From Caenorhabditis elegans (taxonomy: Eukaryota > Nematoda > Chromadorea > Rhabditida > Rhabditidae), in NCBI RefSeq assembly GCF_000002985.6, contig NC_003284.9, forward strand, positions 372,001-436,000: DNA of 64,000 nt, given 5' to 3'. A program made the translations under genes and the position numbers. The notes under the pieces are model-generated. The model was not told the origin of the DNA and did not search any database. It saw only the letters and a list, made by a program, of their open reading frames with translations. Positions 23,247 to 58,600 of this stretch are shown here, piece after piece (position 1 is the stretch's first letter; every line of letters starts with the position of its first letter).

Positions 23247-23762
23247 AAGGTGGAGTAGCGAAATCTGATAAATATTTTTAAATCACTCCAAATTTTCTTC
23301 TGATTCCGAATATCGATGTGAAAAAATTCAAAAAAATTTCCAAAAAAACCGATAAAATACGACAAAATGTATGAAAATAGTTGAAAAACTGAAAGAAGTA
23401 AAAATATATGGAGAAAATTAAATGAGGCTACCGCGCTTCAGGAAGAATTTATTTGGGGGCGCATTTAAAAATGCGCCCGGGGACGCAAATGAAATTTGCG
23501 ATTTCAAGCTCAAATAAGGCAAATGTAGGCCTCACTCCATTCTCTCTTTTCTGTATTATTCCACATTATTCAATATAATTTTTATTTTTCCTTATATTTC
23601 CCCATTTTTACGTTCAAATAAACGTATTAAATAATAATAATAATAATAAAAAAATAAAATCAAGGAATTTTTTGAATTTTTTCACATAGATATTCGGAAT
23701 CAGGGGAAAATTTGGAGTAATTTAAAAATATTTCCCAAATATATTTTGCTACTCCATCCTTA
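23247..23762. repeat. 516-bp foldback element
   Basis: The first about 100 bases (GGTGGAGTAGCGAAATC onward) reappear inverted at 23660-23762 (ending ATTTTGCTACTCCATCC) with roughly 90% identity, including ACTCCAAATTTTC and GATTCCGAATATC. The loop holds a GC block (GGGGGCGCATTTAAAAATGCGCCC, itself a palindrome) and no transposase. Confidence 0.8.
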
Positions 23763-32140: not shown

Positions 32141-32180
32141 TCTTGTTTGAGAACCCGCCAAGATTCCAGTCATAATTACC

Positions 32181-32287
32181 ATAACTGAGACATAACTGAG
32201 ACATAACTGAGACATGACTGGGACATAACTGAGACATAACTGAGACATAACTGAGACATAACTGAGACATAACTGAGACATAACTGG
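32181..32287. repeat. 11-bp minisatellite (ATAACTGAGAC)n
   Basis: Nine full copies of ATAACTGAGAC plus a partial one; only the fourth differs (ATGACTGGGAC). The minus strand is open through the array as an artefact of the 33-base period. Confidence 0.9.
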
Positions 32288-32289
32288 CC

Positions 32290-32985
32290 CAAGCAGTTAC
32301 CGATTGAGCCAGGGAGGATGAGGAAATCCTAGGTCCTCGGTGACTGCGACAAAAATGTTTGTTTGTTTTATCTGGACCTTTTTTTTTCCTTTTTTTGGGA
32401 TGAAAAAATTCGCAAAAAATTTTCTCGTGGTGGAGAGTTGAACGCTCGGTTGAAATCTCGCCGACTCTGTTCAAATGTGCGTTCACACTACCGTCCACAG
32501 CCTACCCATTTTGGGGAATGTATTGGACTTTGTTTCTATAAATAATCCGGATCTTTATAATTTTATTACTATTATCTCCCCGTCAGGGTTGTACGGATAT
32601 TTTTTTTAATAACTTTATTGAATCAATATATCAATAATTCTGAAAAAAAATATTTCATGTCATTTTCAAAATTTTCACAATTTCCATTTTTTAAATGATT
32701 TTTATTTGTTTTGATTTTCAAAATGTCATGACACCTGGAATTATTCATCCGTTTTCCCCAAAACCTTGTTTTGCTTTATTTCCAGAGCTTTCTCCCGAAC
32801 TTTATTTCAAAATTTTCAATTTTTTATGATTCACCGCCTTTACTCTCAGCTCTCTCACTCAATCTTCTTGAATTCTCATGACTTCTCCAGAGAAAAATGA
32901 AGCTGACGGAACCGCCTTCTTTCCTTCTTTTTAAGCCATTTGCCAGCCATTGGTTGGTGAAGTTCAGTCACCTAATTTACGCGGA
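32290..32985. other. Spacer and promoter of the small secreted peptide gene
   Basis: No gene is seen. The last about 150 bases before 32987 probably hold the promoter of the downstream peptide gene. Confidence 0.4.
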
Positions 32986-34489: not shown

Positions 34490-37400
34490 TCAGCAAATAG
34501 GGATTGAACCACAAAGAAGAGAAATTATTTGAGAAATAGTGCTTGTGAGCTCGTTTTGGTCGTTCACTTGGGTGCTACACTTTGCGATTGCATTTAGTTG
34601 TGTCATATTTGCACTTGTTCCGAGACCAATTGCGAACGTTTCCAGACCAAGCTGAAATGAAATCAAACCAAACTTTCAAGTACCACTAAAATGTTCTAGC
34701 ACAAAACAATACAATTTTTGTTTGGCTTTAAAGGTGGAACAGAACCCTGGCCAGGGCGCCAGGATTTTGTTTTAAAATGTATAATGATTCAAAACGACCA
34801 AACATCATAATAAAAGGCTCCAAAAAAATCCAATTTTTCCTAATTCTGGTCAAAGTGGCAAACTGCCAAAGTTTTGAAAAATGTGAGCATTAGAGAAAAT
34901 CCAAAGCAATGTCGCATGTTCCGATCCCTACAATGTTTTAATACAAATAATTAAAACAAAATTATAGTACAATTTTTGAAAAAGTAGGATAAAATAATTT
35001 TTGGTCTGCTTCCAAAATCATGAGTGGCAAAAACTGATTAATTGTTTTTGACCTTTTGACATTAAATTTTAAAAAATTCAAAAGTTTTTTGAAATGTTTG
35101 ATTATGATATTCGGTTATTTTTGCACCATTGGAGTAGTTCTTACACTTTTCCCACTGAGCGTAACCCTCTAATGATTTCAGACTCCAAACCGCCTATCTG
35201 CGTAAGACGTTTAACATTTTAGATCATATGTAGTAAAAATTTTTAATTTTTTCGAAGGCCAATATTTGGTGTAACTAACAAAAATGGTCCGACATTTGCT
35301 AAATTTTAAATTGGTTTAATATTGCAGTACACATTTTTGATTTTCTTAGGCCACGTGGTGTCAGAGTGTCTCACTTCGGTTTTATCTACGTATCTACAAA
35401 AATGCGGATTAAACCGTAATGGGGCAGCCTGGCACCACGTGTTAGGCATGATTATACAAAATTGTCGAAACATCAACATTGTAAATGGACATATGGAAGT
35501 TCCGAACTCCACTTTTTAAAAATAAGAAAACCACAACCAACCTTGTGAAGATTCCTAGCTGCGGGCGCTGGATCAGAGAAACCATTCTCTTTTCCCTCTG
35601 AAACATTCCCTTTGTCCCATCCCTGAGAACTTAGCAACATTAAAAACTTTCTCACAGGCGCTGGTCTGAATGGAGCGGAGTTGTTCTGCAAGACGATGTA
35701 GTCCATGACCCTTAAAATTTCCAAGTTTAGTTTCAATTATTGGTAAATCGGTATAAACTTCTTACGATTGAATGTTGTTCCCGTTGATTCCGGTGTATCC
35801 CAAACTGAATAAATCAGCAAGTTTGTTCTGATAAGCTTCAAACGTGTCGAGTGTGTTGAGATCTCCAGAAAAATGAGAAATAGCATCGTATGTACCCAAA
35901 AGAATGCGAGAGTGGTCATGTCCAATAGAAATTGCGTTCCCAATAGTATTCACTGCACCGACAGTCTGAAAAAAAACGAAAAAGTGGTTCACTTATTTTT
36001 AAGAAATGTCCTACTGCATAATACATCTCATCCGAAATGCTGCCTGAAGAGTCAAAGGCAATTATAACATCGAGCATCGCAGTGCTTGGGTCACATGTTT
36101 TGACTGTTGTGGCAGTTGTGAATTCTAGTGTTGGAGAAGCTGCTGATGGTGTAGCTAAAAACTAGAGTACGATAAAGCTTGATTAGTGGCAGTTCTTGTA
36201 GTCATATTTGTTTATGGCGCGGTTTTGTCCCACCAATGCTTAATAGTAAAGGTAAAGGTTGCCCATTGGGGTCAAAAGTGAGTCGACAAAGCTTGCTGCG
36301 GACAAGAGATTTACCAGAGAGTTACTTGCGGCATTTATATCTCTTCTAGTCTGAATTCAAGCTGTAGGGGTTTACGTAGGCTAAAGCCGTCATAGACTAG
36401 CGGTATGACCGCTTTACTTTTCGTGAACCAAATGTCACGACAACCGCCGGAAACCCTATCGCGGCGGCTGCCGTGAAGTCTATTAACAGCCTCCTCTGGG
36501 TTTTGTCGTTCTTTATTATAAAAAGGTTTTCTTTTATACACATCAAAATGGGCGGGAAATGGATTGGAATGCACTTAAAGTTGTGGGTGGATACATTCAA
36601 TTAAAAGATAAGGGGATTGATAAAATGAAAGTACAAAAAATATAAAATCTTATCCTCTTTGTTGCAAAGGATTAGACACCAAATTCACTAAACTTGTTTC
36701 CGAGCCGGCTGGGTGAGCCTTTGGGGCGAGGTGGGATGGAACTTGCAACATCTTGTGGGACAGTGGTACACCACTACCACTTAGCTGCCCGTGCCCCCAG
36801 CTTTTTAAATGAACAGTGGCAGTTTTTGGTTATGGCGCGGTGTTGCGCCACCTTTGTCTTACAATAAAACACATTATGCAACTTATTATTAAGCACAGAC
36901 CGTAAAACCTTACAATCTAGCCTTCTTCTTGGTACTAACTGGAAAATCAGAAAGGGTGTGTGCTCACAGTTCATGTCGCTAGAATTGTGTAAAAACGTTT
37001 AAGACGTTCGATTTAAATCAAATTTCTGCTAGCATTTTTCAAGCCTTAGACCTTGTGAGCAAACCTCTACGCGGTCTCTGGAAGCTTCAGGACACTTGCG
37101 GCCAAGAAAAATATGTCTATAAAACACCTACGTTGTGGGCGGATCTCCCCATCACAATGAACCGTGAATGTCCTTCTGAACGGGTGCCCCTCAAAATCAA
37201 GTCCATCAAGGGCTACCACAAATTGATTGCGATAACACTGGAATGTGTACTCCGAAATGAATGGATAGGCACATCCATCACGCTTGATAAGAGGGCTTGC
37301 CCAAGCGATTCTTGTCTCGTCCAAATCGAATATCTGAGCATAAGTGAGTGTACCTCCTTCTGAGATATCTGCTACTATTGCGTTCTCAAAATCTCCGCCT

Positions 37401-40400
37401 CGGGGAAACAAAACGGCTCCTCCATCGTGATAGCCTTGATCAGATGCAACGTCTTGTGTGAATCCAAGATCGACTTCTAGTTTTGATTGAGTTCGGATAT
37501 TGAGCTGCAATTTTTTAGATTTTCGGGATATAAATATAACTTAAATCTACCAGACAGACACGCCTGTTTTCCAAATTATGAAATAACATACCGTGCAAGG
37601 GCCACTGTTGCTCATCCCATAGTCGACATCAATTGTCCAAACTCCTGGCTGCTCTCCGGTTTGCTTGAAAACCCTAACTGTGTTGGTTTTTGATTTCACA
37701 ATTGAGAATGAATCAACTTGTTTGTCTGAATTTAAGTATATGAAGATTTTTTGATTTTGGTCATTGTGGTATCATATAAATTTGATTTAAATCGAACGCC
37801 TTAAACGTTTTTACACAACAGAACAACTTACTGTCAACATCATAAATTCCAATTTCTGGTGCGGTTTGCGCAAAAATATCAATGATTGCTTCGGTTCCAT
37901 TAGCATCAAGCTGAATGTAGTCTTGATAATTCGAACAGTTGCTAGAAAAAATAAATGTTAAATTTAAAGGAGCATAGATTTTTCCTAAACCAAATTTTTT
38001 CGCTGCGAGACCAATAGCCTACATATTTTCTTATTCGTCTCTTTTTCCCTCTACAATTGAGGACACCGTTTCTCATGCGACTCTCATTCTCAAAGGTGTA
38101 AAACGAATCTCTCATCATCACACACTGGCAGAAAGGGCGGGTGAACGAATCTCTCGTCGTCGCGAGTGTGTTCTTTCAATACCAGGGAGAACCAGTGCCT
38201 GCGTCACTAATAGGTCTCTCTGTAGCGCTCGCCACTGTGGAGTATACATCTTTCCCCGCTCTGCCTACTATCGTTTCTCTGGTCCCTCTCTGTCTCATTG
38301 TTCATCAAGCGCACCCTTGTTTCTGCAGCCTCTCAAAAAGCGGAAAATGTATTGGAATGTCTACGTCCGGCTGAGTGAGGGAGAGCGTGGGGTTCCATGG
38401 TGTAGCGGTTAGCACTCAGGACTTTGAATCCTGCGACCCGAGTTCAAATCTCGGTGGAACCTATCGCTTTTGCAATGATTTTGAGGGAATTTCGAGTTGT
38501 TAATAGGCCCGTCTGCATAACATTTTTTTGTCAAAAACCTACTTCAACTGATGCGTAACGACATAATATGACTGGTGTAGACTTGCAAGTACAGAAAGCC
38601 AAGTTGTTTGAAGATCATCAGCAGAAGTCAACTGATAAGCAGCTCCACCAGTGATGTGAGCAGCTTCAAACATTGACCGCACAGTAGGATCATCGTAAGT
38701 TACAGCATCCCCCGGTGGCTTAGTATCCCCAATAAAAAGGAAATTGACAGATGAATGGGAGAGAGCTAGCGCTGAAATAACCGTCGGACGATCTAATGTG
38801 TCTTCTGCATTTCCGGCGGTGATAACAAACACTTTTGAGTTGAGCACTACGTTCTGGTTCACAATGGCTTTTACAATTCCAGTGAAGATATCTCGCTTCT
38901 GTTGACCTGCTGTGTAAGGGTTATTCTTGACTTCAGTTGCTAACATTGATGCGAATTCGCTGGAATTAGTTGTGGTGAATACTTTGGAAGTTGATGGAAT
39001 TGGAGGATTTGCTTTTGCAGATTCAGCATCTCTGAAGACCACGCCAACAAAATTTGTGAACCATGCGGGGTCTTGGCTCTGGAAATTTGGTTTTTATTGT
39101 TTTCTTTTTCATTTTTCGAAAGCTGTAGGTCATAGATTAAGTTACCTGAATAGCTGTCAATACTCCATTAATTGTCTTTTCAATATTATCGTTGACAGAT
39201 TTCATTATGTCATTGTTAGAACCGTCAAGCACGACAATAAATGTACGATGCACATCTCCAATAGCTGGCACATCAAGTTGGTTTCGATCGCAAATTGCTG
39301 AATCGACATAATTATATCCGAAATGAGCACAGAGGTCAACTTTTAAAAGCAAAAGTTGCTCCGAGTGCAGTTTTTAAGCTGTTTCAAACAAGCTCAATGT
39401 TTTGGAGCATTCTCATCACCTTTGAATACATATAGTCCTGCTAATTACCCTCAAGGTATGTAGAAACTGTTTCAGAAACAGTGTTTAGCAGACTCTTAAA
39501 GGTTGATTAGCGCCTGTAGGAATTTTGTCTCAATACACTTAAAATGATTTTAAAAAACGAAATATCATAAAACGGAACTCCAAAAATTTTAATTTTTTTT
39601 AAAACTTAACAGTGAAAGTTTTGACAAATTACCAATTTTTTGAAAATCTAGGCTTTTGAGAAAATAAATGTCACATTTTCCGACCCCTAGAATGCCTTAA
39701 CACGGATAATTTTGAAGAATTAATATTTAAAAATTGTAGAAAAATTTTGTTTTGGTTGACTTCCTAAACTATTATGGGTGGCAAAAACTGAGAAATTGTC
39801 CCTTTTTGACAGTGAATAAAAAAATTCAAAAAAAAATTTTTTTTCAAAGTTTTAATAAGATATTTGCCCATTTTGGCCCTACTGGAATAGTTTTAAATAT
39901 TTTTCCCACTAGCGCTATTCCTTTTTTTTTCAAAATTTATTAAAAGCTATATACATTCTGCGAGCTTTTTGAAAATTTCTTGTTTGTTTTAAAAATGTTC
40001 GCCTAATCCTAACATTTTCGAATTCAAAAAGAAGGGCTTAGTAAATTTCAAATGTTAATAACAAAACAATTGTTTTTTAAAATGAACTTACGCATTTCAC
40101 AAAACTGTCCACCGAAATTAGATGGGCATGTGCATTTATTAAGGTTAGCCGACAAATACCCTCCATTCTGGCAATACGCATAATCACAAGCATCTCCGTA
40201 GAAATTTGGCGCGCAAATGCATGTTCCCTTGTAGTAGACTCCTCCGTTCGCACATGAGTTTTCATTGACACCGCCAATGCATGCTGCTGGAACTATGCGC
40301 TGGTAAAGGTAACCTGAGTCATCGATTCCTGAAATTAGTTGTCTTTAGCGGAAATTTTTTTCTGTTCATTTTTTAATTCCAACAATTTCAATAACATTTT

Positions 40401-49400: not shown

Positions 49401-52400
49401 GAAAATTTTTGAGATTAGTTATTGAACTTCATTTTTGAACATTATTCGTTGAAAAACACTCGCTTTGTCTTTATTTTCAAAAAAATTCCGATTTCCCCAA
49501 CCAGAAAAAAAAACAGATAGAAGAAATTTCTCCTTAAATTTCATTGTCCATCTCTCTTGGAAACACATTATCTATCAAATGAAAAACGCATTTTTTTTCC
49601 TGGCAGAAAAATGAAATTGGTTAGATTACACTGGTTAGGTTTGAAGGTGTAACTTTCGCTTTCTCAGCAACTTTCAGTATAAAAGGAAACGGTCACCATT
49701 TAGAAAGACATCAGTTCATCAACATGGGCAAGCTCATTGTGGTTGGATCCTGCGGAGTACTTGTGTGCGTTCTTGCCTCGCTTTACACCATCGGAAACCT
49801 TCTCAATGAGATCGAGGAGCTTCAAGTTGAGTTCCAGGATGGTATGGTTGAATTTAGAGTAAGTTTTACATAAAGGAAGTTAGTGTTGTTATCAATTCAC
49901 TTTGTGTTCAGGCTATCACCCAAGACACCTGGGCTCGTATGGTGAGCAAGCACATCAACCCAACCGGACACACAAATGCTCCACCAACCTTTGAGACTCT
50001 CTTCGGAGCCCGTACCGCTCGTCAAGCTGGATTCGAGCAATGTAACTGCGGACCAAAATCCGAGGGTTGCCCAGCTGGACCACCAGGACCACCAGGAGAG
50101 GGTGGACAGAAGGGAAATCCAGGACACGATGGAGACGATGGAAAGCCAGGAGCTCCTGGAGTTATTGTTGCCATCACCCACGATATTCCAGGAGGATGCA
50201 TCAAGTGCCCACCAGGACGTCCAGGACCAAAAGGACCATCAGGACTTCCAGGATCTGCTGGACCAGCCGGAGGAAACGGAAGACGCGGACCACCAGGACC
50301 AGTTGGAGGACCAGGAGAGCAAGGACCACAGGGAGATGCAGGAAGACCAGGAGCCGCCGGACGTCCAGGACCAGCAGGACCACGTGGAGAACCAGGAACC
50401 GAGTACAAGCCAGGACAGCCAGGACGTCCAGGACCACAAGGACCACGCGGAGAAACCGGACCAGCCGGAAATCCAGGAGCACCAGGAAACGATGGAGAGG
50501 CTGGAAAGAACGGAAACGCCGGAAGACCAGGACCACCAGGGCATCCAGGAAAGAATGGAGTTCCAGGACAAAAGGGAGAGGATGCCGCACCAGGACCAGA
50601 TGCTGGATATTGTCCATGCCCATCTCGTGCAGCTTACAAGGCTTAATTCTGCCTTTCTCTGTCTTTTTTATAAATTTTCGAACATTCCAAATTGTGTTCT
50701 GTTTCTGCACTTTTTTTTAAATTGCAATTTCACATGCAAATCAAAATACTTCAGCTTTTCAAATCTGGCAAATTTCTTTTTTTTTTTAATTTGGAACACT
50801 TTTTAAAAACCAACTCTAAAAACCAACTACTAGAATTATTTACCAAAATAGAAAATTATACCAAGATTGTCCTTCGAAATATAGTCCAGTTAAAAAAATT
50901 TTTTTGCCGGGCAGCCCCAGTCCACCTGAAAATAAAGCCACCTACGTACCGTTTCATTATACAGAATTCCTCCATTTTCACAAAACCTTGCTGGCGTCGT
51001 CGAAACGTGCACGGAAGGTGTTGTGAATGTAATTTCACTTAGGTCACAGCTAAAGTCGTAGATTCTCTGGAACCTGTTTCCATCACTATCGTATCCTAGA
51101 AACCGACAATGAGAGAAGGGAGAAAATAGAAAGGAGAAATACCTCTGAACTTGGCATGATACAAGTTTTGAGACGTACAGTTATAAGATTGTTGAGTGAT
51201 ATGAGGGGTACTGCAGCCGTATCTGAAAAATGGTTTTTCTGCCAAAGCAATTATGTTCATGATTCATCTTTGTTAAATCTAAATGTTCAGGCTTTATTTT
51301 TGAATTAAAAAATGCTTCTGCAATATAAACATGTATTTTTTTCAACAGAAAAAAGTTTACTTTCCTTCAATTTTTTTGGATCATCCAAAATTGAATAATG
51401 TAGAAAAATTGATTCTATTGAATAATGTAGAAAAAAATTACTCAATTCCAAATTTTTATCACTCTCAAACATTCACCTCAAGTTCAAATCCATTTTCTGA
51501 TCGAATAGGCCGTTTACATAAAGATGCACCTCATCGGGATGAATTGGAAATTCTTCACTCTCGACTTTAAATGCTAAAAATGCTGCCTGATTTTCAAGTG
51601 GGAAACGGAATATTCCTTGATTTGCAGTGGAAAATATTACTTTCTGAACGTCATCGTCACGAACATCCTCTACAAACCCACCATCAACTGTCAGCTTTGT
51701 TGGAGCTCGGACTTCAAATATACACGGTCTGAATGATTTTATTTTTAAATGAGATAAGATTTCAAGAGTCTTTTTTTGATTTTTTTTTCACAATTTGGGT
51801 CATCTTGTTTTAATTGTGTGCTCACTTGTTCAAATCTGCAGAGAGCTGAACCGTATACGCTCCAGTTCCGTGAACATTCTTTCCGTTGCAGATAAGGTGA
51901 ATTGTTTGAGTGACGTCCGTGGTGATATCTTTGCATGTGGACACTTCGCCTCCAATCGGATTATAAACTGTTGCCCGCGGATTGAGGGCGTCGAGTGTAT
52001 TGATAATTACAAAGAACTCTTCGATAAAATTGTCGACGTAAAAAGTGAAAGTGTCGGAGCAAGTCGCACTGAAGATATGTGTATGTATTATGAAACATGT
52101 TATTAATCTGGTATTGGTTCTCGAATAACGTAATGAAAATCCAGATAGAGTTTTAGATTATTATTAAATCGCAAATAGAAACCGGAAAAATGAAAAATGG
52201 CAATTTTACTATCAACAACAAGTTTCACGTTTTTGACAATTTTCGAGTATTTTTTTTCGAGTACTTTAAAACACGCCTATGGTACCAAAATAACCGAATA
52301 TCATGATTAAAAAATTCAAAAAAAATTTCTAAATTTTATATGATTTTTTGAAAATTGAAAAAAATCTCAGTTTTTGCCTAATTCCGATTTGAATTTCCGC

Positions 52401-53625
52401 CTATTGAAGTTGTTCGATGGAGCGCACTTGCACGTTTTAATTTTAATTTATTGTTATTTTGAAAGAAAATGCATGCATTTAAACGATTTCGAACTTGAAT
52501 TTACAGATTTCACAGACTCACGCTTGTGAATTAGCTTTTTAATCAAAAATTAGCATTTATTTTGACTTTTTCGTCAAATTTCAGACAAAACTACATTGAA
52601 AACATGGAAAATTGGTGAAAAATATGACAAAATAACAATAAATTAAAATTAAAACGTGCAAGTGCGCTCCATCGAACAAATCCAATTGGCGTAAACTCAA
52701 ATCGGAATTAGGCAAAAACTGAGATTTTTTCAATTTTCAAATTTTAAAATTAGAAAAAATTTTTGCATTTTTTTATCATGATATTCGGTCATTTTGGTAC
52801 CATAGGCGTGTTTTAAAGAAATTTCCCCACTGGCGCCACTCCACCTTTAACTAGAATTAACATTTTCCAGATTCTATTCCTAAATTTTAATGAAAACACT
52901 GAGTGAAAATGTCCCACAGGCTCAATTTTTAGAACTGCTGGTTAGCAATCTCCGAGCACTCCACGATTTTCTACAATATTCCCTACTAAAAATGTATACC
53001 TGAAATCACTCTCCACTAAATCACCAAATTTTGCAGTACCGTCATGAGGCAGTATATCAATTGACTTATTGTAGCATGTCACTGGAGAGGTTTGATCCAA
53101 CAGTTTCGGTCTTGAAGAGAAGGTAGGTTGAACCCGTTGAGAAGGTTCCGATAGATTTAGTGCAACAAGTTGTTTGAGTTTCGAATTCACTGAAATTTAA
53201 TCCCTCTGGCTAAAACTGGTCAAAAAACGTTTTCTGTAAAGATTTGAAGAGGTTCTATTAAATGTGTTGGCTTGGCCTAGCCAGAAAGAGAATCCACTGG
53301 CGTTTCCACCAAATTCACTCTTGAAAAAATTGTTCTTAGTTGGTTATTTAATTCATCAAATAAAAATTCCCGCTAGAAGCACAAAAGTGAGCTCAATACC
53401 TTTCGTGTAGTTGTGACTCGGACCAGAACTTATGATGTAAACATTTTTAAGTAAGCCTGCTGTGTTTTTTCAATATGTCAAACTTTTGCCAATATTTTCA
53501 ATTTTACGTGTTTTTTACTTAAACTTACAGCTTTTCGTTAGTTCGCCGTGTTGACTTTTATTGGGAATACTTACTCCACTACAGACCCGCAGTAGTAGAA
53601 TACTTGTAATTACAAATTTGAGCAT
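34490..53625 (-). CDS. Large secreted EGF / VWA / C-type lectin protein (IRG-7-like), 33 exons
   Basis: Thirty-three exons join in phase to about 2,135 aa, from ATG 53625 (signal peptide [17 protein letters not shown]) to the stop at 34490. Exon ends (5'->3'): 53571-53625, 53400-53456, 53000-53189, 51826-52068, 51477-51728, 51143-51222, 50950-51095, 47730-48057, 47153-47304, 46445-46820, 46160-46278, 45750-45882, 45616-45705, 45421-45545, 44722-44886, 44252-44679, 43811-44208, 42878-43099, 42672-42831, 42427-42524, 41653-41688, 41457-41609, 40438-40626, 40092-40328, 39146-39297, 38543-39078, 37832-37941, 37592-37725, 37132-37504, 36015-36154, 35766-35965, 35542-35710, 34490-34651. Order: beta-rich N-terminal part, EGF (CENGG...GCYCG), VWA 1, beta-rich segment, EGF pair, VWA 2, C-type lectin (FWIGLSD, WEW, FVCQK), EGF pair, VWA 3, VWA 4 with intact MIDAS DSSGS. 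IRG-7 has this mix and acts in gut pathogen response; that role here is inference. Exon 2 start is the weakest point. Confidence 0.85.
34728..35170. repeat. Foldback-family fragment (GGTGGA...GGCAAAAACTGA), copy A
   Basis: AAAGGTGGAACAG, AACATCATAATAAAAGGCTCC, GAGTGGCAAAAACTGA and the end ATATTCGGTTATTTTTGCACCAT occur in the same order as in the copies at 39498-39920, 52255-52850 and 63875-64000. It lies in the last intron of the large gene. Confidence 0.6.
35348..35450. repeat. Dispersed GTGGTGTCA-end repeat, copy 2
   Basis: GCCACGTGGTGTCAGAGTG to GGCAGCCTGGCACCACGTG: the two ends are inverted copies, so this is a short complete palindromic element. It is in the last intron of the large gene. 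Confidence 0.7.
36987..37025. repeat. Left arm of an exon-flanking inverted repeat
   Basis: The 39 bases starting GTGTAAAAACGTTTAAGACG are the reverse complement, with a single mismatch, of 37778-37816. This arm lies in the intron after exon 29. Confidence 0.85.
37778..37816. repeat. Right arm of an exon-flanking inverted repeat
   Basis: Pairs with 36987-37025. It lies in the short (106-base) intron before exon 28 of the large minus-strand gene, so exons 28 and 29 sit exactly between the arms. Confidence 0.85.
38391..38462 (+). tRNA. tRNA-Gln (anticodon TTG)
   Basis: The 72 bases fold as a full cloverleaf: acceptor GGTTCCA/TGGAACC, D-arm with the box A text TGTAGCGGTTAGC, anticodon stem CAGGA/TCCTG with loop CTTTGAA (anticodon TTG, reads CAA), and T-arm CGAG/CTCG with box B GAGTTCAAATC. 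A TTTT run starts 4 bases after, a Pol III stop. No intron. The gene is on the strand opposite to the host gene, in the intron between exons 26 and 27. Confidence 0.95.
39498..39920. repeat. Foldback-family fragment, copy B
   Basis: Shares CATAAAACGGAACTCC, GGGTGGCAAAAACTGA and TATTTGCCCATTTTGGCC blocks with copy A at 34728-35170, in the same order. In the intron between exons 24 and 25. Confidence 0.55.
40915..41165. repeat. CGGCAA-family repeat, copy 9
   Basis: CCGGCAAATTGGCAAACCGGC and later ATCCGGCAAACGGCAAATC with intervening text like copy 3, in the intron between exons 22 and 23. Confidence 0.7.
44954..44964. repeat. C11 mononucleotide run
   Basis: Eleven consecutive C in an intron of the large gene; a TA dinucleotide run follows at 45029-45048. 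Confidence 0.9.
46856..47010. repeat. Dispersed GTGGTGTCA-end repeat, copy 3
   Basis: ATGTGGTGTCAGGCTGTCC, GTTTGATCTACCTAGAT and AACGTGCTGACGTCACA match copy 1 in order. In the intron between exons 9 and 10. Confidence 0.65.
48060..49670. promoter_or_regulatory. col-19 upstream region inside the host intron
   Basis: No coding segment on either strand. The stretch just before 49678 is expected to hold the col-19 promoter; in the literature col-19 is switched on at the adult moult through LIN-29. I do not assign individual sites. Confidence 0.45.
49678..49685 (+). promoter_or_regulatory. TATA box of col-19
   Basis: TATAAAAG lies 46 bases before the ATG, the usual place for worm collagen genes, which are seldom trans-spliced at a distance. 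Confidence 0.75.
49724..50646 (+). CDS. col-19: Adult cuticle collagen COL-19
   Basis: Two exons (49724-49858, 49912-50646) give 289 aa. Residues 2-32 are a hydrophobic signal/anchor segment, followed by an acidic helix and a non-collagen part with an Arg-rich ARTAR site where subtilisin-type cleavage is expected. The Gly-X-Y regions start at [10 protein letters not shown], are broken by [16 protein letters not shown] and run to [10 protein letters not shown]. Cys pairs CNC before, CIKC between and CPC after the helices are the usual cross-link sites. Codons are strongly biased to CCA and GGA, as in highly expressed worm genes. The length, text and company of dve-1 identify it as col-19 (ZK1193.1), which is adult-specific. 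It is entirely inside the 2.9-kb intron 7 of the minus-strand EGF/VWA gene. Confidence 0.93.
52255..52850. repeat. Long foldback element
   Basis: Left arm 52260-52475 and right arm 52600-52820 are inverted copies: AACACGCCTATGGTACC against GGTACCATAGGCGTGTT at the tips and CGATGGAGCGCACTTGCACG against CGTGCAAGTGCGCTCCATCG inside. Loop about 120 bases. In the intron between exons 3 and 4. Confidence 0.85.
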
Positions 53626-55686: not shown

Positions 55687-58600
55687 TTATACGAAAACCT
55701 TCTGCTCAAGCTTTTCCTGCATTCCATTCAACAATCGCTTGCATTTTGCACGTCGATTTTTGAACCAGATCTGCAATTCGAATTCGATAACTAGTAATCA
55801 GTATTAATATAGAATATTACCTTCACATTGTGCTGACTAATATGCGGATAATTCTCTCGATAAGCGCAGTTGTTCAAGCATTGTGTGTACTGATCGATTT
55901 GCATCCATGTCGGGTGAGGATTCTCTTCGAACCATTTTTCGAGGACGGGTAGCTCGGTGAGTGGGTCGAACATCAGGCGTGAGCGAGCCGCTGAAAACAC
56001 TAAAACGGAGATTATTTGCTTTATCGTTGAATTTTTTCAAACGTTCCGCGTCAGTGATTTTATCGAAAAATAGAAGTAAAATTCCACCTTAAAGTTTTCT
56101 TGTCGAAAAGATAGAGAATTTTTATGCAGTCATTTTTCATATGCATAGCAAACGCAATCTAAGAGCGTTTTAGAGATAGCAACCAATATAGGTTTTCAGA
56201 CTGAGTATCATGAACATGGCCACCTTCTCGATAAGTTTGAGCCAGTACAAAATCCCTAGAATATTTCTCAAAATCAAGTTTGCAGTTGATTTTCTGTTTT
56301 ATTTCTGTAAACACAATACCTAGCCTCATTTTTTTTTCCTCAGATCTCAGTGATCGTAATGGTTGTCTGTGCGAAATTCGACGCCCCACATTTCTCCCTT
56401 TGTTATGTGTCTTCGCGCACTTTGTGTATGTCTATGTGTGTTTGTGTGTGTGTGCTCGCTTCTAATTTATGAGTTCTTGGTTCAACCCATCTCCCTCTCT
56501 TTTCCGTTAGCCTGTCTGTTTTAAAGCTCTTTGTTGTACCTGATGAGTTGGCGTTTTGCATGGAGTTGGTGGATGATGAGTGGGTGCTGAATGCTCCGAG
56601 GTCGAGCCCGCTGAGAAGCTTTGGGGAGGTCGAGGACAATGATTCGCGCATTGAGTTTGCCATATCCGGGGAGGATGCAATTGAATCCTGTAGGAAATGT
56701 TGCTTGTTTTGGGATGAATAATTTTTAAAGGTGGACCATAATTGTGTCGAAAAATATTTTTAATTGGCGCTCAGCCGACGCTGACAGTTTGGAATAAATT
56801 CAGATTTTCGGCCGTAGTGTTAGGTCTTTATAACCTTATCGGTAATATTTAGCAATTTGGGAGATGTTATCTTTAATGTGAATCAGAATCGAAATAGCCG
56901 AAAATCCGTTTTTAGCGTGATTTTTCAAAGCTTTTCAGCACGAGCAACGCTAATCAACCTAACTATGGCACAAACAGTCAAACGTAACTTACAATTTCCG
57001 GTTCTGGTTTAATATTGATGGAAAACAAAGTATCTTGAATAGTTTCATCTGAATTGCTATGAATCTCATCATCGGCTGGAGATGGCGAGTCGGAGCCGCC
57101 GACAATCTTGGTTTCATCCAGTTTGTCGTAAAAATCAAATTTTTGACGTTGTTCTCCAAACAGGGACTGGAGCAAGTTGAGTTGGAATCCCGGGAGCAGC
57201 TGCGCCGCTGTCTGAGCTGACGAGACCTGCACTAGGTCTACTGGAGCTAAGGTACGGGAACTCGAGCGTTTTTGTGTGAACCAATTGCAAATCTGGAAAT
57301 TCATTTGATTAATGGAGTAATATGTAGGCGCATTAAATTCACCTGTTGATAGCTGATCTTGGAATTGTTCTTTCTGAACGGACTCTGATTGAGCTGGCTT
57401 AAGTAATTGTTCATTTTTTGTTTAGATGGATTTGCATCGGATTTGAACCATTTATCAAGACGTGGAATTTCGTAAAGAGTGTTGAATCTTTGTACTTGTG
57501 TTGGGCTGAAATTAAATACATACATTATTATGTGTACTGAAAGTAATATGAAAGCAGGCGTTTATCTTTCTTGAGAGTGGAATGAAAAGAAAATCATGTA
57601 GCGTATTTCTTCTATTTGTATTGCACCCGACTACCTAACTTTGAAACGTTATATCTTAATTCATTTTAAAGAGTATAAATACACTTTAAAGATATACATA
57701 TATTTTTAACTACGAATCTATAGAAAAATAACTGAAAAAATATTTTGTTAGTTAACAACTTCGAATAGCACAAACGATAACTGAGATATAAACAGTTAAA
57801 GTTGAACAATGTGGTACAATACAAATAGAGGAAATACGGTGTAATTACTCGTATACAAGTTTTTTGTAAGGATAGTTTTTAATCATTTTTTACTGACACT
57901 TTTTCTCCAATCACGACTCCATTCTGATAGTTATACTGGGTCCCCTTCTTCTTGTTTTTGCGCCCCCCCCCCCCCCCCGGGTAACAGTTTGGATATATCA
58001 CTGTATGCACACAACGCATTCAATCTCCCTTTTTCTATTCTTTATTACTCTTTACAGAATGCGTCACCGCCGTCCTTTCCCATTTTGCCCTTTATTCTGC
58101 TGTTCCCATTCCCTCAGAGCAATATGTACATGTTTTGTATCCTCTCTTGTGTCTGTATGTCACAATAAGATTACTCACAACACAACTCAATTATTTGTAC
58201 AGTTGGAAATTCGAAAATTTGGATGTGCTTCGATGACTGGAAAACTTGATTTCAGCTTTTTCTTTTTCCTTTTTTCTTCTCGTTGGAAGAAGGAGTTTCA
58301 ATAAAGGAATATGTGGAAAACAACTGTCTCCATCACTTATAATTTGACTTCTTCCCTTTGTTGTCTCGGGAATGTAGATCAGCAGGCAGTGGCAGTTTCA
58401 GAGATGTTTTCACGGGTCAACAAGGGGCCAAAACCAGTCCTGATCTCTTAGCCTCCTTCTCTTGAGAAATTGAGAAAGACACAATGGCATGATGGAGGGC
58501 ACTTAGAGAACGACCGAATTTGATCGTTTTGTCTTTTGTCTCGTTTTTTTTTTGAAATTAGCTATCTTCATCTCAGTCTAATACTGCTCTCTTATCCGGG

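Follow-up and report, generated by a model that had tools for sequence, protein, structure and literature searches.

A 41-nucleotide inverted repeat across two introns of an irg-7-like gene of Caenorhabditis elegans, with a predicted circular RNA or exon skip

The window analysed here is a stretch of 64,000 nucleotides (nt) from the C. elegans X chromosome (NC_003284.9, positions 372,001 to 436,000). Its minus strand carries a large gene which, judged by its domain matches, encodes an irg-7-like protein, and whose stop codon, read by eye, lies at 34492-34490. Two introns of this gene, flanking a pair of exons, contain the two arms of an inverted repeat that would pair in the transcript. Window coordinates are used throughout, and the position on X equals the window coordinate plus 372,000. 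We keep the exon numbers 27-30 of an earlier note on this DNA, made from the letters alone, the draft gene model being too rough for counting exons.

The inverted repeat, its origin and its surroundings

The elements concerned, from upstream to downstream in the gene, are as follows.

37832..37941, minus strand: exon 27, with its start set by eye (the draft model starts at 37910); donor exon for the predicted skip
37726..37831, minus strand: intron 27, 106 nt
37778..37818, minus strand: upstream arm, in intron 27, running from intron base 14 and stopping 52 nt short of the 3' splice site
37592..37725, minus strand: exon 28, 134 nt
37505..37591, minus strand: intron 28, 87 nt
37132..37504, minus strand: exon 29, 373 nt
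36155..37131, minus strand: intron 29, 977 nt
36985..37025, minus strand: downstream arm, in intron 29, running from intron base 107
36015..36154, minus strand: exon 30, where the last VWA domain begins (DSSGS motif, by eye); the far end comes from the draft model alone

An independent draft gene model recovers all six borders of introns 27, 28 and 29, and adds a doubtful exon (36573-36418) inside intron 29. GT/AG is present at every border, and the splice sites of exons 28 and 29, donors and acceptors alike, score 4.8-6.5 in draft scoring. For comparisons across the gene, a trimmed draft was used, consisting of 30 exons hand-picked out of 49 placed by the draft model from 53189 leftwards; 19 small or doubtful exons were removed and the start of exon 27 was shifted.

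In a repeat search of the window, the two arms are 41 nt long, 98% complementary and 752 nt apart. The sole mismatch between them becomes a G opposite a U in the transcript, so that all 41 positions pair, with a duplex energy of -55.3 kcal/mol. The earlier note had described a 39-base inverted repeat with one mismatch (36987-37816) in the introns that precede exon 28 and follow exon 29; this is borne out, its 39 nt forming part of the 41-nt pair. The complementarity score of introns 27 and 29 is 37, compared with a maximum of 12 and a mean of 8.8 in 200 dinucleotide-shuffled pairs of the same introns. Among the 106 intron pairs of the trimmed draft (introns at most four apart; match +1, mismatch -3), this pair ranks first, and the next best scores 16. 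The inverted repeat is confirmed as a real feature, beyond chance.

We folded the precursor messenger RNA (pre-mRNA) at lengths of 1991, 1091 and 847 nt, and all 41 pairs appear in each minimum-energy structure. Their mean pair probability is 0.984, 0.984 and 0.971, respectively, with the lowest single pair at 0.56, 0.56 and 0.50. When we shuffled the sequence of the downstream arm, 10 times per length, the mean energy rose by approximately 35, 42 and 39 kcal/mol in the same order. By these calculations, the helix is predicted to dominate the local RNA structure.

The origin of the arms was addressed by a search of 100,286,401 bases in 7 contigs, in which the best candidates were scored and very common words were skipped. 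Among those candidates, a 111-nt stretch around the downstream arm matches only itself and the upstream arm, and a 23-nt core, with at most 3 mismatches, matches two places in the genome, which are the two arms (a reversed control pattern gives 1 match). A transposon or repeat family as the origin of the arms is rejected on this evidence, and a further hidden copy is unlikely. Because these searches place the sequence nowhere but at the two arms, one local inverted duplication appears a likelier source than a repeat family. The single difference in 41 sites suggests that the copy is young, or that the pairing has been maintained.

Intron 29 has other repeats of its own. We notice a 44-nt direct repeat (36207-36250 and 36825-36868), its copies separated by 618 nt and 75% identical, and alongside it another match (19 nt, 84%). 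These direct repeats bracket a stretch at approximately 36710-36800 that looks tRNA-like by eye, where Rfam and ARAGORN report nothing; over the whole intron (36155-37131), Rfam gives no RNA family at E up to 1, and the one gene that ARAGORN finds in the window lies elsewhere. The direct repeats and the tRNA-like stretch are perhaps an old mobile element. On the other side of exon 27, a tRNA-Gln gene (anticodon ttg) occupies 38390-38463 on the plus strand, antisense within the intron directly upstream; the Rfam tRNA match scores 67.2 bits at 38391-38462.

The location of the gene on X can be compared with a published deletion. PMC7252304 describes a deletion that takes away the leftmost 405 kb of X, with its breakpoint at X:405,058 within R04A9.1, and the identical deletion in two strains out of separate screen rounds. 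If the assembly version of that paper matches, as we assume, the breakpoint corresponds to window position ~33,058, approximately 1.4 kb past the stop codon of the irg-7-like gene. Because the deletion end in R04A9.1 falls there, the gene is probably a right-hand neighbour of R04A9.1. Near-identical short tandem units, roughly 'gttatgtctca', are seen by eye on the minus strand at 32180-32300, ~2 kb past the 3' end of the gene. At 49900-50800, overlapping long open frames of up to 286 amino acids occur on both strands, and the draft model translates a leucine/valine-rich stretch, which suggests repetitive coding sequence read in the wrong frame. Upstream, at approximately 55700-57500 on the minus strand, lies a separate homeobox-like gene with two homeodomain-like stretches (draft translation, by eye).

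Reading frame and the protein segment

Exons 28 and 29 together measure 507 nt (134+373), and both outer junctions are in phase 1. Skipping the two exons therefore preserves the frame, and a circle made of them is stop-free in that frame. On lengths, phases, the continuous frame of the circle and the frame-keeping skip, the earlier note was correct.

An Ig_Irg-7 match (E 5e-20, 72 bits, cut-off 27) lies wholly in exon 29. It is accompanied by a GBD_IRG7_N match across exons 27-29 that remains under the cut-off (19.3 versus 27 bits; match residues 6-87), with exon 27 holding the first part of this weak match and exon 28 most of the remainder. Further upstream in the same gene, another stretch matches GBD_IRG7_N above the cut-off, at 44.5 bits, and has an Ig_Irg-7 match that falls short of it, at 18.2 bits. 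The segment had been placed between what the earlier note counts as the third and fourth VWA domains. VWA-type matches do stand on both sides of it, a VWA_4 match upstream that is slightly under the cut-off (25.6 versus 27 bits) and a VWA match downstream that is above it (27.8 versus 23.8 bits, in a scanned stretch partly assembled by eye).

The skip junction cuts the GBD_IRG7_N-like match, itself below the Pfam cut-off, after residue 36 and leaves 31 of its 82 residues. Based on these family matches, the skip would remove the whole Ig-like domain and probably cut the domain preceding it, and so would probably not take out a clean cassette.

Predicted splicing products and alternatives

We propose that, fairly recently, a short intron stretch was copied in inverted orientation to another place in the gene, at a distance of approximately 0.8 kb. 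With both arms in one pre-mRNA, introns 27 and 29 are calculated to pair over 41 bases. This pairing would draw the acceptor of exon 28 and the donor of exon 29 together, within ~160 nt of each other outside the helix, and place the donor of intron 27 right beside the helix. A minority of transcripts may then give rise to the two-exon 507-nt circle, to a transcript joining exon 27 to exon 30, or to both, as we infer from published C. elegans cases.

Those cases bear out the claim that complementary flanking introns are a known driver of circularisation in this species. In PMC8330042 (Cao 2021), deletion of one reverse complementary match (RCM) in each of 6 chosen C. elegans genes is reported to leave the circle beyond detection or at an extremely low level in all 6, with the linear RNA also altered in some genes. 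The deletion lowered the skipped transcript in three reported genes, zip-2, Y20F4.4 and arl-13; zip-2 needs no more than matches of 7 and 13 nt, whose deletion cuts both the circle and the skipped transcript. Because such matches drive both outcomes in C. elegans, back-splicing and skipping are both plausible here. According to the same paper, each is possible without the other, and for 330 of 1154 circles the corresponding skip is seen in one read or more. PMC5753478 (Cortes-Lopez 2018), with 1166 circles in total, reports that RCMs are enriched at worm circles and that two exons are the commonest content of a circle.

By analogy with these genes, we put the chance that pairing of introns 27 and 29 yields a circle or skip at a low but detectable level at about even. 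The products themselves, the circle as well as the skipped transcript, would probably be low-level by-products without selected function. The prediction of a circular RNA or a skipped cassette is thus upheld in part: the pairing is real, strong and rightly placed, while the clean cassette is doubtful in view of the probable domain cut, and the support drawn from the frame is weak.

Several points weaken the case for the proposed circle or skip. Frame neutrality of exons 28 and 29 is weak evidence and carries little weight, because 14 of the 29 pairs of adjacent exons in the trimmed draft share it (single exons have lengths that are multiples of three in 8 of 30 cases); we dropped it as evidence for a cassette. 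An endless circular frame was likewise dropped as evidence of translation, since any coding exons with matching phases give one. The fold calculations disregard proteins and co-transcriptional kinetics. Intronic inverted repeats are common in the worm: PMC4282642 reports one in an intron longer than 1 kb in approximately 25% of expressed genes. Within our window, 12 inverted repeats score at least 18 within 4 kb, and three of them, with loops of 166, 332 and 437 nt, outscore the 41-nt pair; two of the three are inside one draft-model intron (52999-52069), and the third is at 23270-23733. As to the copying step, a CTAGC direct repeat on either side of the downstream arm does not tell which arm is the copy, because about 10% of random placements give it by chance (at least 5 matching bases in 9.7% of 20,000), and we left it unused as an insertion signature.

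The anatomy of intron 27 adds to these points. Its 106 nt stand beside 977 nt for the downstream flanking intron and a median of 147 nt over the 29 introns of the trimmed draft, while circle-flanking introns are described as 'much longer than average' in PMC8330042, which marks a tendency and no strict condition. Its donor scores 5.1 in draft scoring (1.2-7.1 over the listed exons), and the downstream arm ends 741 nt past its 3' splice site. Because the intron is short, its donor fair and the arm end that much further on, the removal of intron 27 may well precede transcription of the downstream arm, leaving nothing to pair. Whether pairing comes before this splicing is a matter of kinetics. 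In addition, worm circles arise preferentially near the 5' end of a gene (PMC5753478), while exons 28 and 29 sit close to the 3' end of theirs.

The short intron, its fair donor and these two trends among worm circles also favour a different explanation, that the repeat is a bystander. Here, a recent inverted duplication would have no measurable effect on splicing, either because intron 27 is removed early or because the helix is melted by editing or RNA-binding proteins. The lack of another genomic copy among the best candidates scored is also what a one-off event predicts. On the other hand, the far shorter matches of zip-2 are reported to be effective (PMC8330042), and the helix here is predicted to dominate the local structure. 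We regard such an inert duplication as a substantial possibility, though one held at less than even odds.

A different role for the helix is that of double-stranded RNA (dsRNA), chiefly as a target for ADR-1/ADR-2 binding and adenosine-to-inosine (A-to-I) editing or for nuclear dsRNA control, with splicing secondary. The 41 uninterrupted pairs are consistent with this, and in one C. elegans study more than 98% of edited regions had at least 2 inverted repeats, overlapped transposons, or both (PMC4282642). Such a role is compatible with the proposed circle or skip and does not exclude it; as the chief function of the helix we think it unlikely.

A selected, regulated switch, producing either a functional circle or a functional secreted isoform shortened by 169 residues ahead of the last VWA domain, is very improbable. 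In its favour, the frame is kept, the single arm difference preserves pairing as G-U, and an in-frame loss of 221 residues in IRG-7 is a gain-of-function allele (PMC5308781). Against it, a protein left with a fragment of the GBD domain, if the weak match is right, and without its Ig domain would likely misfold, frame-neutral neighbouring pairs are common, one wobble is easily had by chance, and PMC8330042 states, on data that it does not show, that several assays of circle-deficient strains revealed no obvious phenotype.

Returning to the proposed pairing-driven circle or skip, the locus would, if the proposal is true, offer a clean natural test of the minimal requirements for a circle, namely one 41-base copy, no repeat family and an upstream intron of very small size. 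A comparison between worms that have the second arm and worms that lack it would then reveal whether circles are by-products of chance intron pairing. If no products exist, the locus is useful as a negative case in which strong pairing fails, the shortness of one intron being a possible reason. The boldest version, in which a young inverted duplication made a two-exon circle and a shortened secreted irg-7-like isoform in one step, possibly variable among wild worms, seems to us a long shot.

Elsewhere in the same gene, we also observe nested inverted repeats at 52264-52818 and 52359-52730 within one intron (59 nt with 3 mismatches and 103 nt with 5), which are foldback-element-like.

Comparison with known worm systems

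Given its anatomy, the locus plausibly fits the class of circular RNAs flanked by RCMs, an assignment weakened by the short intron 27 and the 3' location. Like the circularised exons of zip-2, glr-2, gpa-1, unc-75, arl-13, iglr-3 and Y20F4.4 in PMC8330042, exons 28 and 29 have complementary stretches in both flanking introns; the role of the matches is experimentally demonstrated at those loci, whereas here it is predicted. The arms of the present pair reach 41 nt with one wobble, next to an upstream intron of 106 nt, in contrast to the 7- and 13-nt matches of zip-2, of which the 13-nt match is reported to be conserved in five nematodes.

A second comparison is circ-crh-1 (PMC8844124), which likewise has intronic RCMs on either side of the circularised sequence in C. 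elegans. It comprises one exon between long flanking introns, unlike the two exons and the short upstream intron here. ADR-1 is reported to reduce this circle, and mean lifespan to increase when the circle is lost.

At the protein level, the closest known system is irg-7 (F40F4.6; PMC5308781), whose product has VWA domains, as does that of our gene. The likeness rests on family matches, our gene matching the Pfam families GBD_IRG7_N and Ig_Irg-7 that are named after IRG-7. The irg-7 allele zc6 is a gain-of-function genomic deletion that removes 221 residues in frame, including an EGF domain, whereas the loss considered here would be a predicted splicing event.

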